Shown here piece after piece: positions 7,426 through 20,683 of a stretch of 38,834 nt of DNA (positions are counted from its first letter, which is position 1; each line of letters opens with the position of its first letter). Made by a program: the position numbers and the translations under genes. Below the pieces are notes generated by a model. That model was given only the letters and a program-made list of their open reading frames with translations, made no database searches and had not been told where the DNA came from. The stretch is from Bradyrhizobium sp. Lineage in GTDB: Bacteria > Pseudomonadota > Alphaproteobacteria > Rhizobiales > Xanthobacteraceae. The stretch lies in assembly GCA_021732175.1 (NCBI GenBank), contig JAKFVP010000276.1, forward strand, positions 1-38,834, read 5' to 3'.

Positions 7426-8112
7426 CTAGTACCCGAAGGACACCGCCCGCAGCAGATGGTCGTTGACGGCGTTTACGCCGGGGATGGCTTTGGCCGCCAC
7501 CTTGATGGCATCCCGCTCCTGCTCGTTCTCGACAGAACCCCAGAGTTCGACGACGCCTCCAGTCACCACGATGTTGAGCTTGTGTGCTTGGGTCCACGAC
7601 TGCTTCTTGAGTTCGTCGAGCAGTCGGTTGCGGATCGCGGCGTCCGGAAGGCTGATCTCGAGCGGCGGCCGCACGCTGGCGACGGCCTGGATGATATTGG
7701 CGCGGCTGAGGATGCCGACCAGTTCTCCATTCTTGTTCACGATGGGAACGCGCTTGATCTGGTTCTGCTCGAATAGCTCGGCGATCTCATGCAAGGGTGT
7801 ATCGGGGGCCGCTGTCTTGACGTTCCGCGTCATGACGTCCTTTACGCTGACGGCATGCGATTTGACGTAGTCGGCCGCCAATGTCCGTGCATCCGCGAGC
7901 AGCGACAGCCACCAGGAATAGTGACGCTCGGTTCCAATCTCTGCGCGGCGCATCAGGTCGGACTCCGTGACGATGCCGACGAGCTTGCCGGCCGCATTGA
8001 GCACAGGAACGGCGCTCACACGCTGGTCGATCAGGAGCTTGGCAACTTCCTGAACGGTCGCGTTCTCACCAACAGTAATGACGGGCGAAACCATCACGTC
8101 TTGCGCTTTCAT
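7426..8112 (-). CDS. CBS domain pair plus BON domain protein
   Basis: The product has 228 aa. Two CBS motifs occupy about residues 1-60 (DVMVSPVITVGENATVQEVA) and 72-130 (DVMTRNVKTAAPDTPLHEIA). A BON domain follows at about 145-220 (IRNRLLDELKKQ, then NIVVTGGVVELWG). CBS pairs bind adenosyl ligands and often sense energy state; BON domains are linked to membrane or phospholipid contacts. GGGAGG lies before the ATG. Upstream is a perfect FixK/FNR-type box with a TATCAA hexamer 31 bp from its centre, so induction under low oxygen is likely (inference). No enzyme domain is attached, so a sensor or adaptor role is the best guess. Confidence 0.88.
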   Translation of the reverse strand: MKAQDVMVSPVITVGENATVQEVAKLLIDQRVSAVPVLNAAGKLVGIVTESDLMRRAEIGTERHYSWWLSLLADARTLAADYVKSHAVSVKDVMTRNVKTAAPDTPLHEIAELFEQNQIKRVPIVNKNGELVGILSRANIIQAVASVRPPLEISLPDAAIRNRLLDELKKQSWTQAHKLNIVVTGGVVELWGSVENEQERDAIKVAAKAIPGVNAVNDHLLRAVSFGY

Positions 8113-8154
8113 GTGAGCCTCCCTTGTGTGCAGCTACCATTGATATTTCAAGTA

Positions 8155-8195
8155 TTGATAGTTCAGGCAGCCGGCACGGGGTTGATCGGCGTCAA
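8155..8195 (-). promoter_or_regulatory. FixK/FNR-type promoter for the CBS-BON gene (possibly bidirectional)
   Basis: TTGATCGGCGTCAA at 8182-8195 fits TTGA-N6-TCAA, the FNR/FixK consensus. On the minus strand a TATCAA hexamer at 8155-8160 is centred 31 bp away, the spacing of a class II activator at -41.5 with a -10 element. This predicts a start near 8147, about 35 nt before the CBS-BON ATG. On the plus strand TATGCT (8218-8223) lies 32 bp from the centre and could serve the host-attachment gene. Confidence 0.65.
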
Positions 8196-8343
8196 ACCGG
8201 CATGGTCGTGCGAGGAATATGCTTTCCAGATGCCGGGTCGCCCGTTGAACGCGGCCTGTATTTGGGGCTTTCCCTGGCATATTGGCCTCCCGATACCTGT
8301 CCCTTCGGGTGGACCGGGTTCATAACCGCGAGGAGCCTGAGGG

Positions 8344-8787
8344 ATGAAAATTCCGCATGATGCGTTCGTGTTCGTGGGTGATGGGCGCAAGGCAATCTTC
8401 CTGCGCAACGAGGGCGACGAGAAATACCCGAACCTGAAGACCGAACGGGTATTCGAGGACGACAATCCACCCACCCGTGAGCAGGGTACCGACAAGCCGG
8501 GGCACCTCGGCAAGGCCATGGGTTCGGCCCGGCGCAGCGCGGTGGAAACGGCGGATTGGCACGACCTCAATGAGCACCGTTTTGCCAGGACGGTGGCAGC
8601 TGCGATGGAACGGCTGGTACGCGAGCGAAGGGCCCCGGCGTTGGTGATCGTGGCGCCGCCCCGGACGCTGGCTGATGTGCGCAATGCGCTGCATGCGGAC
8701 GTTGCGGCGCTCGTGATCGCGGAGGTCAACAAGGATCTCACCCGGCACCCGGTGGGAGAGATAGAGAAGCATCTCACCGGCGGTTGA
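8344..8787 (+). CDS. host attachment protein (baeRF-like family)
   Basis: This 147-aa protein begins MKIPHDAFVFVGDGRKAIFL and matches what I remember of proteins annotated as required for attachment to host cells. The name comes from Agrobacterium; the biochemical function is not established, and the fold is thought to resemble release-factor/eL30-like domains. AGGAGCCTGAGGG precedes the ATG. The second half (LVRERRAPALVIVAPPRTLADVR, about 95-118) is the conserved core. It diverges from the CBS-BON gene across a 231-bp region with the FixK-type box. Its 3' end overlaps the convergent ChaB gene by 14 bp. Confidence 0.75.
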   Translation: MKIPHDAFVFVGDGRKAIFLRNEGDEKYPNLKTERVFEDDNPPTREQGTDKPGHLGKAMGSARRSAVETADWHDLNEHRFARTVAAAMERLVRERRAPALVIVAPPRTLADVRNALHADVAALVIAEVNKDLTRHPVGEIEKHLTGG

Positions 8788-9019
8788 CGCGGCCCTTGCT
8801 GCGCGAGGGGCGGTCCGAGGCGATCCATGTATCGCCCATCTTCACATATGAACGCTTCACGGCCGACCATGCGGTGCGGTGAGCGATTTCCTCCTGCCGC
8901 GGGTCGGCGGCATGGGATGCGAAGGCATGGTTGAACGCTTCGCGATAGATGTCCTGCGCGTGAGCCGGCAAATGGCCGCGTACAGAGTGGGGCAAGTCGG
9001 CATTCGTCCGGTAGGGCAT
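8774..9019 (-). CDS. ChaB family protein
   Basis: The 81-aa product starts MPYRTNADLPHSVRGHLPAH and contains DIYREAFNHAF near residues 23-33, the typical ChaB domain. ChaB was named from the E. coli cation-transport region, but its biochemical role is unclear. The gene follows the DUF3775 gene by 15 nt on the same strand and should share its transcript, which starts at the second FixK-type promoter. Its last bases overlap the end of the host-attachment gene, so the two transcripts collide. Confidence 0.8.
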   Translation of the reverse strand: MPYRTNADLPHSVRGHLPAHAQDIYREAFNHAFASHAADPRQEEIAHRTAWSAVKRSYVKMGDTWIASDRPSRSKGRVNRR

Positions 9020-9034
9020 GATCGCGTGACCTCC

Positions 9035-9451
9035 TCAGAGCGGCCGCTCGAACTCCTCGGCCGAATGGCCGAACTGCGAAAGCGCTTCTTCCAGGTAGTC
9101 GCTGAGCAGCGGCATGCCGATGAGATATTGGGCCGTGCGCCGGTTATGTGCACGGTCCGCCTCGCGACGGATATCGGCCCAGTCAGCGATGTCGCCGTCG
9201 CCGCGGCCGAGCCAGGCCAGCGCGACAAGATCGATCTGCTCGTCCTCGTTCAAGCCACGGATCATGGCGCTGAGCTCAGACCGTGCCGGGTCGGACGCGT
9301 GATCTTCCAGCACCGACAGCATGGCGTCATCACTGCCGTTCGAGGCGGAATCGGGGTCGGTGACCACGTCCTTGACGTCGAACTGGCGTGCCTTGGAAAG
9401 GATCGCGGCGACCTTTTCCGGCGAGATCACGAGATCGGGAATGTCGTCCAT
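9035..9451 (-). CDS. DUF3775 domain-containing protein
   Basis: The start was set at the ATG at 9451 (MDDIPDLVISPEKVAAIL), with AGGGAGCC upstream, giving 138 aa. The track's start at 9472 adds seven residues and lies at the predicted transcription start. The acidic protein carries LNEDEQIDLVALAWLGRGD near the middle and HNRRTAQYLIGMPLLSDYLE near the end, the DUF3775 hallmark. Its function is unknown. It is the first gene of a two-gene unit with ChaB, downstream of a FixK-type box. Confidence 0.78.
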   Translation of the reverse strand: MDDIPDLVISPEKVAAILSKARQFDVKDVVTDPDSASNGSDDAMLSVLEDHASDPARSELSAMIRGLNEDEQIDLVALAWLGRGDGDIADWADIRREADRAHNRRTAQYLIGMPLLSDYLEEALSQFGHSAEEFERPL

Positions 9452-9480
9452 GCCTGGCTCCCTGGGCAGCAAATATGGAT

Positions 9481-9521
9481 AATTTAGCGGCGATTGGCCG
9501 AAATCCCTTGAGGGAGGTCAA
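9481..9521 (-). promoter_or_regulatory. second FixK/FNR-type promoter (DUF3775-ChaB direction)
   Basis: TTGAGGGAGGTCAA at 9508-9521 is another perfect TTGA-N6-TCAA. Reading the minus strand, TAAATT at 9481-9486 is centred 31 bp from the box centre, the same geometry as the CBS-BON promoter. It predicts a start near 9473 and a leader of about 22 nt before the DUF3775 ATG. In the plus direction no good -10 lies at 30-32 bp. Confidence 0.62.
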
Positions 9522-9539
9522 ATCACCTCATTGAACTAT

Positions 9540-10742
9540 ATGGCCGATGAGGAGATTGTTGTTGAGGCAGGCGGGACGCAGGACGCAGTGCAGCAGGGCG
9601 CATGGGCGCATATGGGCAAGCCGTCGGACAAGACTTCAAGCAGACTTCCTTCGGGTGCGGCTCCCCCGCACGATCCGATGCAGTGGCCCCTTGCCGCCAT
9701 GAAGGTCGCCACCGATGCGATGTTCTGGTGGCTCGATCAAGGTAACGGGCGCAAGGCTTCCGACGACAGGCCGCCGCTGCCGTGGACGACGCCGAACGCG
9801 GTTGCGCTCGAATTGACCACCATGCGGCTTCGCGATTTCTCGCGGTCGCGCATCGGACGGCCGGTCCTGATCTGCGGGCCTTATGCGCTGCACAGCACGC
9901 TGCTTGCCGATTTTGCCCCGGGCCACAGCATCATCGAGCGTTTGCAGCAGAGCGGGCATGAACGGATATTCCTGACCGATTGGCGCTCCGCCTCGGCTGA
10001 CATGCGGTTCCTTGCCATCGACCAGTATCTCGCCGACCTCAACGTCGCCGTCGACGAGATCGGCGCGCCCGTCGATCTCATCGGATTGTGCCAGGGCGGC
10101 TGGCTGTCGCTGGTCTACGCGGCGCGCTTCCCGGGAAAAGTGCGCCGGCTCGTGCTGGCGGGAGCGCCTGTAGATGCTTCCGTCGATTCCGGACTGGTGC
10201 GGCTGGTTGGCAGCGCCCCGCAGGCCGCCTTCGAGGGGATCGTCGAAAGCGGCGGCGGCATCGTCAGGGGCGCACACATTCTGCGCTTCTGGAGCCGCGC
10301 CTCCGACACCGCCCTGGTGCTGCAACGAAGCCTCTCGCAGGAAGCGCCCGCCGATCGGGAATTGCATGAGCGCTTCGTGCGCTGGCACGACGAGACCGTC
10401 GATTTGCCCGGCACCTATTACCTCCAGGTCGTGAACTGGATCTATCGAGAGAACCGGATCGCGAACGGCACATTCGTGGCGCTCGGTCGCACCGTTCACC
10501 CCGAGGACGTGAGTGTGCCGGTTTTCCTGCTGGCAGGCGCCGATGACGAAATCGTACCGGCACCGCAGGCCATGGCGACCGCCTTGCGGCTCGGCACGCC
10601 GGCCGCGCAGATCGAGCGCGCCGTCGTCCCCTCCAGCCACCTCGGCCTCTATCTGGGCGGGCAGACGCTGGCCACGGCCTGGCCCCGGATTGCCGGCTGG
10701 CTGCAGGCGGACAGGGCGGTTTCGGTCGCTGCCCGGCTCTGA
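9540..10742 (+). CDS. PhaC-like alpha/beta hydrolase (polyhydroxyalkanoate synthase family)
   Basis: The product is about 400 aa. The nucleophile motif is GLCQGG, with Cys rather than Ser, as in polyhydroxyalkanoate synthases. The rest of the triad fits: GADDEIVP for Asp and SSHLGLYLG for His. Further PhaC-like stretches are LTDWRSA and TYYLQVVNWIYREN. It is shorter than class I synthases (about 590 aa) and lacks most of their N-terminal domain, so it may be a short PhaC homologue or a related acyl-transfer enzyme. The start is uncertain: ATG 9540, the track's TTG 9531 or ATG 9612. The FixK-type box ends 18 nt before 9540. A 3-hydroxybutyryl-CoA dehydrogenase follows, consistent with a link to PHB metabolism. 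Confidence 0.68.
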   Translation: MADEEIVVEAGGTQDAVQQGAWAHMGKPSDKTSSRLPSGAAPPHDPMQWPLAAMKVATDAMFWWLDQGNGRKASDDRPPLPWTTPNAVALELTTMRLRDFSRSRIGRPVLICGPYALHSTLLADFAPGHSIIERLQQSGHERIFLTDWRSASADMRFLAIDQYLADLNVAVDEIGAPVDLIGLCQGGWLSLVYAARFPGKVRRLVLAGAPVDASVDSGLVRLVGSAPQAAFEGIVESGGGIVRGAHILRFWSRASDTALVLQRSLSQEAPADRELHERFVRWHDETVDLPGTYYLQVVNWIYRENRIANGTFVALGRTVHPEDVSVPVFLLAGADDEIVPAPQAMATALRLGTPAAQIERAVVPSSHLGLYLGGQTLATAWPRIAGWLQADRAVSVAARL

Positions 10743-19018: not shown

Positions 19019-20617
19019 CTACAACCCTGTCCCGGCGCTCATGATTGGCTTGTGCTTCGGCCGCCGTTTCTCGTCGGTGACATTGGCTTCCTCCGGCTGC
19101 AGGGGAGGCGCTTCCTCGGTCATCGGCCCCAGCGCCGACATCACGCGCTCCGGCGGGAAGGTGATGATCACCTCGGTGCCGATGCGCACCTTCGATTTCA
19201 GCGTGAACGTGCCGCCATGCATGTCGACAAGGCTCTTGGCGATCGGCAGGCCAAGCCCCGCGCCTTGCTCGGCCGACTTGATGGAGTTCGAGCCCTGGCC
19301 AAACGAAGCGAGCACGATCGGGATCTCGTCCTCGGGAATGCCCGATCCGGTATCCTTGACGCTGAGATATTGCCCGCCGGAGGCGGTCCAGCCGGCCTTG
19401 AGCCAGATCTCGCCGCCCTGCGGCGTGAACTTGATCGAGTTGGACAACAGGTTCAGCACGATCTGGCGGATCGCACGCTCGTCGCCCCAGATTTTTGGCA
19501 TCGCCTGCTCGAACACCTCGTGGATGGTGATGCCGCGGCTCGAGGCGCGAAGCTTCAACAGATGATGGCAATCGGCGACGACATTGATCAGCGACACCGC
19601 TTCCTCGTTCAGCTCATAGCGGCCGGCCTCGATACGCGACAAATCGAGGATTTCGTTGATGAGGTTCAAGAGGTGAACCCCGGAATTGTGGATGTCGGCG
19701 GAGTATTCCTTGTAGACGGGCACGCTGTGTGCGCCGAAGATTTCACTCTTCATCACCTCGGAAAAGCCCAGGATGGCGTTCAGCGGCGTGCGCAGCTCGT
19801 GGCTCATCTGCGCGAGGAAGCGCGACTTGGCCACGTTGGCTGATTCGGCGCGGTGCCGCGCTTCGTCCGAGATCGCCTTGGCCTGTTCGAGCTCGCCGAT
19901 CAGCGCATCCTTTTCCGCGCGCGCTTCCAGCGTCGCCAGCGTCGTCGAGTGCAGGCGATGGGCGAGCAGGGCGAAGTAGCCTTCGGCGGCGAGTGCCAGC
20001 ACCGCCAGCACGTAATTGTCGAAGGTGCCGCTGAGGATGAAGTTCAGCGCAATCGCCACCGTCACCGGCGCGGTCGCCGCCAGCGCTGCGATCGGCAGGC
20101 TCGCCGCCAGCATGCTGGACACCGCGATCACCAGCAGCATCAGGAACATCATCAGCGTGTTGGAGGCGACGTCGAGGCCCGCGGGCCGGATCAGGATCGC
20201 GGTCCAGGTCAGCCCGTAGAGCAGGTCGAGCAGCACGAAGCGCGTGCGCCATTTGCGCGTCGCGGGCAGCGAGGCCGGCTCGCCGAGGAATTTCGAGCAG
20301 CTTCGGATGATCGCGGCATGGATGCACAGCATGCCGCAGGTCCAGGCCGCAGCGGAGACCGGCTGCATCCAGAAGCCGAACAGCACGCCGGTCGCGACCA
20401 CCAGCAGCATGACGACGAAGGATGCGGATATCCTGGTCTGCGCATACTGGCGCAGCAGTTCCGTATCGAAGGCCGGGCGGGTTCCGCTTGATGACGTTAA
20501 CCGATCGCGCGCCTCGCGCACCCGCTGTGCCGACGCGCGCCGCGCATTGACGGGCGCAGCGGGGGCAGGATCGGCCGGAAGCTGGACAACTTCAGGCTTT
20601 TCAGCGGGTTTACTCAT
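19019..20617 (-). CDS. membrane-bound sensor histidine kinase, PdhS/PleC-DivJ-like
   Basis: The protein has 532 aa from ATG 20617 (MSKPAEKPEV). Five or six hydrophobic helices lie between residues 64 and 217, followed by a coiled coil (about 225-262). The HisKA domain has the phospho-acceptor in FLAQMSHELRTPLNAILGFS (His273) and the segment INEILDLSRIEAGRYEL. The HATPase part shows NLLSNSIKFTP, DTGSGIPEDEI and GAGLGLPIAKSLV. The HisKA region closely resembles the PleC/DivJ/PdhS kinases that act on DivK in the alphaproteobacterial cell cycle; this assignment is by eye. A TTAA-N7-TTAA CtrA-type site lies 100 bp upstream. No receiver domain is attached and no response regulator is adjacent. Confidence 0.85.
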   Translation of the reverse strand: MSKPAEKPEVVQLPADPAPAAPVNARRASAQRVREARDRLTSSSGTRPAFDTELLRQYAQTRISASFVVMLLVVATGVLFGFWMQPVSAAAWTCGMLCIHAAIIRSCSKFLGEPASLPATRKWRTRFVLLDLLYGLTWTAILIRPAGLDVASNTLMMFLMLLVIAVSSMLAASLPIAALAATAPVTVAIALNFILSGTFDNYVLAVLALAAEGYFALLAHRLHSTTLATLEARAEKDALIGELEQAKAISDEARHRAESANVAKSRFLAQMSHELRTPLNAILGFSEVMKSEIFGAHSVPVYKEYSADIHNSGVHLLNLINEILDLSRIEAGRYELNEEAVSLINVVADCHHLLKLRASSRGITIHEVFEQAMPKIWGDERAIRQIVLNLLSNSIKFTPQGGEIWLKAGWTASGGQYLSVKDTGSGIPEDEIPIVLASFGQGSNSIKSAEQGAGLGLPIAKSLVDMHGGTFTLKSKVRIGTEVIITFPPERVMSALGPMTEEAPPLQPEEANVTDEKRRPKHKPIMSAGTGL

Positions 20618-20683
20618 CAGACAACACAATTCTGCCCGCGAACCGCACGGACTTTTGCATCATCTATCTGTGGCCCTAAATGT

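Follow-up and report, generated by a model that had tools for sequence, protein, structure and literature searches.

Two perfect FixK/FNR-type boxes with class II-like spacing upstream of CBS-BON and DUF3775-ChaB genes in Bradyrhizobium

A small group of divergent genes in Bradyrhizobium sp. is organized around two perfect FixK/FNR-type palindromes, raising the question of which regulator reads these sites and which of the neighboring genes they control. A sequence-only reading of the window (the whole 38,834-nucleotide stretch of DNA analyzed here) had proposed that each palindrome lies 31 bp from a -10-like hexamer and that the genes form a microaerobic block of poorly characterized proteins. 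We followed this up in the window, in the rest of the assembly, and at homologous loci. The features concerned are listed here by their positions in the window.

7426-8112, minus strand: CBS-CBS-BON protein, 228 aa (Pfam CBS 7.7e-36, BON 2.3e-13)
8155-8160, minus strand: -10-like hexamer TATCAA of the predicted CBS-BON promoter, centre 31 bp from the centre of box 1
8182-8195, no strand assigned: box 1, perfect FixK/FNR-type palindrome TTGATCGGCGTCAA (motif scan; a perfect box is common upstream of CBS-BON homologues)
8218-8223, plus strand: -10-like hexamer TATGCT of a candidate host-attachment promoter, centre 32 bp from box 1
8344-8787, plus strand: host-attachment protein of baeRF family 12 (release-factor-like), 147 aa (Pfam PF18856 2.1e-41, PF10116 7.2e-40)
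8774-9019, minus strand: ChaB-family protein, 81 aa (Pfam ChaB 2.1e-21)
9035-9451, minus strand: DUF3775 protein, ATG at 9451 (Pfam 1.9e-29; homologue alignment)
9481-9486, minus strand: -10-like hexamer TAAATT of the predicted DUF3775-ChaB promoter, centre 31 bp from the centre of box 2
9508-9521, no strand assigned: box 2, perfect FixK/FNR-type palindrome TTGAGGGAGGTCAA (motif scan; common upstream of DUF3775 homologues)
9612-10742, plus strand: PhaC-like alpha/beta hydrolase (reading frame and similarity to the closest relative, L022, begin at MGKPSD)

We consider it highly probable (about 0.87) that boxes 1 and 2 are sites for a FixK2-type activator of the CRP/FNR family that would drive the CBS-BON gene, the DUF3775-chaB genes and, probably, the host-attachment gene.

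FixK-type boxes in the window and in the genome

The motif scan and the measurement of the hexamers confirmed the two boxes and the 31-bp geometry of the earlier reading. Both boxes are intergenic and match perfectly the FixK/FixK2 regulon consensus TTG(A/C)-N6-(T/G)CAA, described as the FixK2 box (PMC9104804); read in the direction of DUF3775, box 2 is TTGACCTCCCTCAA. The window contains three copies of the perfect form TTGA-N6-TCAA, where dinucleotide shuffling predicts 0.29, and not one of 100 shuffles gave as many as three. Over the whole 6.24-Mb assembly, a scan of the kind that had been suggested for estimating chance frequency returned 132 sites, with each palindrome listed once per strand, versus 29 for the reversed control pattern.

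The third perfect site of the window (19656-19669) falls within the reading frame of a histidine kinase (19022-20629, minus strand), has no hexamer matching TATAAT in at least four of six positions at the 31-bp offset, and is probably a chance match. Elsewhere in the genome, perfect FixK-type boxes cluster on contigs C69 (L072, L073), with at least seven among the listed sites, and C30 (L061, L062), with at least six. The former bears ccoN and a second CBS-BON gene and the latter a fixK gene, and both clusters are likely microoxic islands.

Spacing between the boxes and the -10-like hexamers

In the window, TATCAA and TAAATT each lie 21 nt beyond their box, that is, 31 bp from centre to centre. 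As the hexamers match TATAAT at only four of six positions, the two sites alone are weak evidence and an independent test of the geometry was needed. We therefore scored hexamers with at least four of six matches to TATAAT by their gap from the box, using 51 perfect boxes of the genome (50 of the 132 sites and a second match near one of them), among them both window boxes. The counts peaked at a gap of 21 nt (31 bp), with 9 of 102 orientations compared to about two at a typical gap. Among boxes upstream of homologous genes, the window being excluded, 18 of 39 had a -10-like hexamer at a gap of 21 or 22 nt (31-32 bp), while other adjacent pairs of gaps gave a mean of 2.4 and a maximum of 9. The nominal binomial p of this second peak, ~3e-12, is uncorrected for relatedness and too small, because the homologue sequences are related by descent. 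The peak was oriented toward the gene, with counts of 11 and 9 towards it and 4 and 1 away. As the peak appears in both the genome boxes and the homologue boxes, the 31-bp spacing is no chance agreement between two sites.

Promoters of the FixK/FixK2 regulon are expected to have a box centred ~40.5-41.5 bp from the transcript start and a -10 element at the matching distance. The predicted promoters of the window resemble class II FNR/CRP-dependent promoters in having the box centre ~31-32 bp from the -10 centre, an arrangement that does not need a -35 element; their transcript starts are predictions from sequence. The transcript start of nosR in Bradyrhizobium diazoefficiens, 40.5 bp from its FixK2 box, fits the window geometry (PMC5582078), and the genome and homologue peaks support the class II-like FixK/FNR geometry that had been assigned to both promoters. 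A FixK dimer on each box would adjoin the sigma-70 holoenzyme of RNA polymerase, with the -10 element ~31 bp from the centre of the box. Transcription would start ~40-41 bp from that centre, near 8147-8148 for box 1 and near 9473-9474 for box 2, in both cases on the minus strand. Given the second of these predicted starts, ATG 9451 appears preferable to the upstream TTG 9472 as the start codon of DUF3775.

The boxes are also conserved in relatives, as the earlier reading required of functional sites. L022, a Bradyrhizobium metagenome-assembled genome whose DUF3775 protein is 91% identical to that of the window, retains the entire gene order together with the two boxes, whose half-sites are unaltered while bases of the spacers differ; the wider families are treated below. 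The complete arrangement, in which the PhaC-like gene and a gene for 3-hydroxybutyryl-CoA dehydrogenase are adjacent, was found only in the window and in L022.

Genes on either side of box 1 and candidate regulators

Of the 32 CBS-BON loci (window included), 23 have a perfect box and 26 a relaxed one in the 250 bp upstream, in most cases 64-90 bp ahead of the start codon; the reversed perfect control pattern was found within 250 bp upstream of none of the 32. Together with the -10 spacing, this conserved box strongly supports box 1 as the predicted promoter of the CBS-BON gene, which it would activate leftward, on the minus strand. In two related genomes (L098 and L099), two tandem perfect boxes, with starts 34 bp apart, precede one CBS-BON gene.

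Box 1 probably also drives the divergent host-attachment gene through a second -10 element on its other side. This gene is a likely target because the same 32-bp offset on the plus side is occupied by TATGCT in the window and by TATGTT in L022. An alternative, which we hold to be the less probable reading, is that the boxes act in one direction only, on CBS-BON and DUF3775-ChaB, and that the host-attachment gene has an unrelated promoter of its own. Box 1 stands 149 bp from the start of the host-attachment gene, a relaxed box within 300 bp is present at just 10 of 30 close homologues of that gene, and the tight box-to-start distance is confined to the CBS-BON side; against this stand the two hexamers at 32 bp and the B. 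diazoefficiens homologue bll4645, which is FixK2-dependent and has the box TTGATCGGGATCAA at -69 (PMC9104804). The host-attachment gene is thus a plausible target of box 1, as had been proposed with some reserve.

The bll4645 gene and the adjacent CBS gene blr4646 are both induced by microoxia, and blr4646 is not marked as FixK2-controlled (PMC6515984). Like the pair around box 1, these two neighbors belong to the CBS and host-attachment families and point in opposite directions, with the box upstream of bll4645. Unlike the window, where the distance is 149 bp, the B. diazoefficiens box is ~69 bp from the host-attachment start, and in the window DUF3775-chaB directly adjoins the host-attachment gene on its far side. 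In two genomes of the same genus (L075 and L076), the reverse complement of TTGATCGGGATCAA lies upstream of a CBS-BON gene whose product is 60% identical to that of the window; in L076 a host-attachment gene runs divergently from this CBS-BON gene. Based on this arrangement and the box identity, we infer that these genes are orthologues of the bll4645/blr4646 pair of USDA 110. Since CBS and host-attachment homologues are already known to depend on FixK2 or microoxia, the view of the locus as a block of poorly characterized proteins holds only in part.

The genome encodes two FixK proteins, L006 and L007, which match the FixK2 structure PDB 4i2o at 9.4e-111 and 5.8e-85, respectively. Both have an E..SR recognition helix and, with three cysteines in frame in L006 and two in L007, both are of the FixK kind without an iron-sulfur cysteine cluster. 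One contig carries, in order, the C-terminal part of a FixL-like histidine kinase, FixJ, a receiver protein, and FixK2 (L006), which is the gene order known around fixK2 in B. diazoefficiens. The heme domain of the kinase is not seen because the contig end cuts off the sensor part. A FixK-type box also precedes the single ccoN, 73 bp ahead of its first start codon. This cluster and the ccoN box support the FixLJ-FixK2 context of the proposed regulation, in which low oxygen would raise fixK2 expression through FixL and FixJ, by analogy with the mechanism known from B. diazoefficiens. The likeness to the FixK2 regulon of that species covers the box consensus, the regulator family, the fixL-fixJ-receiver-fixK2 order, and the types of target (CBS, host attachment, PhaC, USP, cbb3 oxidase); it differs in that the literature searched was not seen to name a DUF3775-chaB operon among the targets.

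It is unlikely that the boxes are read mainly by a CRP/FNR protein other than the FixLJ-linked FixK2. Candidates are the second FixK (L007), an FnrN/AadR-type iron-sulfur protein, and the NnrR/DNR-like L014: the genome has several CRP/FNR proteins, including L007 and L014, FixK and FnrN bind a nearly identical motif (PMC4999443), and an FnrN could be missing from an assembly that is 88% complete. However, among the CRP/FNR loci scanned, the E..SR-type helix is present only in L006, L007, and L014, the fixL-fixJ-fixK2 cluster has kept its order, and homologous genes are FixK2-dependent in B. diazoefficiens (PMC9104804), all of which favors FixK2 as the activator.

Genes on either side of box 2 and possible roles of the products

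The chaB gene lies 15 bp downstream of DUF3775, an adjacency also seen in L022, L023, L025, and L026, and the two genes probably form one operon. Within 250 bp upstream, 19 of the 51 DUF3775 loci (window included) have a perfect box and 27 a relaxed one; the reversed perfect control pattern was found there at none of the 51. At 24 of the 51, several of them distant, even a relaxed box is absent from this interval. As about half of the loci thus lack it, the link between box and DUF3775 is not universal, and some members of the family have lost it or never acquired it. We predict that box 2 is the promoter of the DUF3775-ChaB operon, which it would drive leftward, and the claim that DUF3775 and ChaB are FixK targets is upheld at the level of prediction. 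A literature search found DUF3775 linked to FixK nowhere, and in a search on ChaB with FixK or microoxia, ChaB was absent among the matches listed. FixK control of this operon is a new prediction, whereas the type of FixK switch is itself well known. An AlphaFold2 model of DUF3775 is all helical, with a mean pLDDT of 80, and no structure in the PDB matched it with E <1.

On the other side of box 2, the PhaC-like reading frame was over-extended at its 5′ end (9531-9611). We moved the start from 9531/9540 to ATG 9612, since the corresponding frame of L022 has a stop codon just before MGEPSD. In B. diazoefficiens, phaC2 (bll6073) and the CBS gene blr6074 are FixK2-dependent and are listed with one and the same box sequence in opposite orientations (PMC9104804). 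By this precedent box 2 could also activate the divergent PhaC-like gene, and the corrected start leaves space for such a promoter. We find this doubtful: no hexamer with at least four of six matches stands 31-32 bp from box 2 on the plus side in the window, and none was seen in L022. The inclusion of the PhaC-like gene among the FixK targets is thus unsupported, box 2 having no -10 element at matching spacing on that strand in either genome. The box sequence of phaC2/blr6074 is present elsewhere in the Bradyrhizobium sp. genome (C69:6034). A search of the assembly gave no second close PhaC-like gene, so the gene of the window may be the phaC2 counterpart.

That boxes and spacing are chance matches, as a motif with only eight fixed bases, 29 control matches genome-wide, and the intragenic third box of the window might suggest, is contradicted by the family-wide conservation upstream of the same genes and by the shared offset, and is scarcely credible.

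It is reasonable to think that the products of the CBS-BON, DUF3775-ChaB, and host-attachment genes likely take part in a low-oxygen dormancy or stress response. For the baeRF-1 clade, an action on ribosomes that are stalled or hibernating has been proposed (PMC6514570). A bolder and rather improbable proposal is that FixK controls DUF3775-ChaB as a conserved and hitherto unrecognized operon throughout the Hyphomicrobiales, and that its products would act jointly with ribosome hibernation factors and host-attachment proteins of the baeRF type to rest ribosomes under low oxygen. On the Sinorhizobium fredii plasmid pSF45436d (L169), typed as conjugative, a DUF3775 gene adjoins a gene of the HPF/RaiA family and a host-attachment gene lies ~5 kb from DUF3775; genes for a hemerythrin-domain protein and a Crp/Fnr regulator are nearby too, all among FixK-type boxes.

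The measurement of box-to-minus-10 spacing across homologues can help to tell active FixK sites from chance ones. The so-called host-attachment proteins have Pfam relatives that resemble release factors and that have been proposed to work on stalled or resting ribosomes (PMC6514570). The predicted regulation would tie these proteins to oxygen limitation rather than to attachment, and it would assign a concrete low-oxygen signal to two uncharacterized families, DUF3775 and ChaB.
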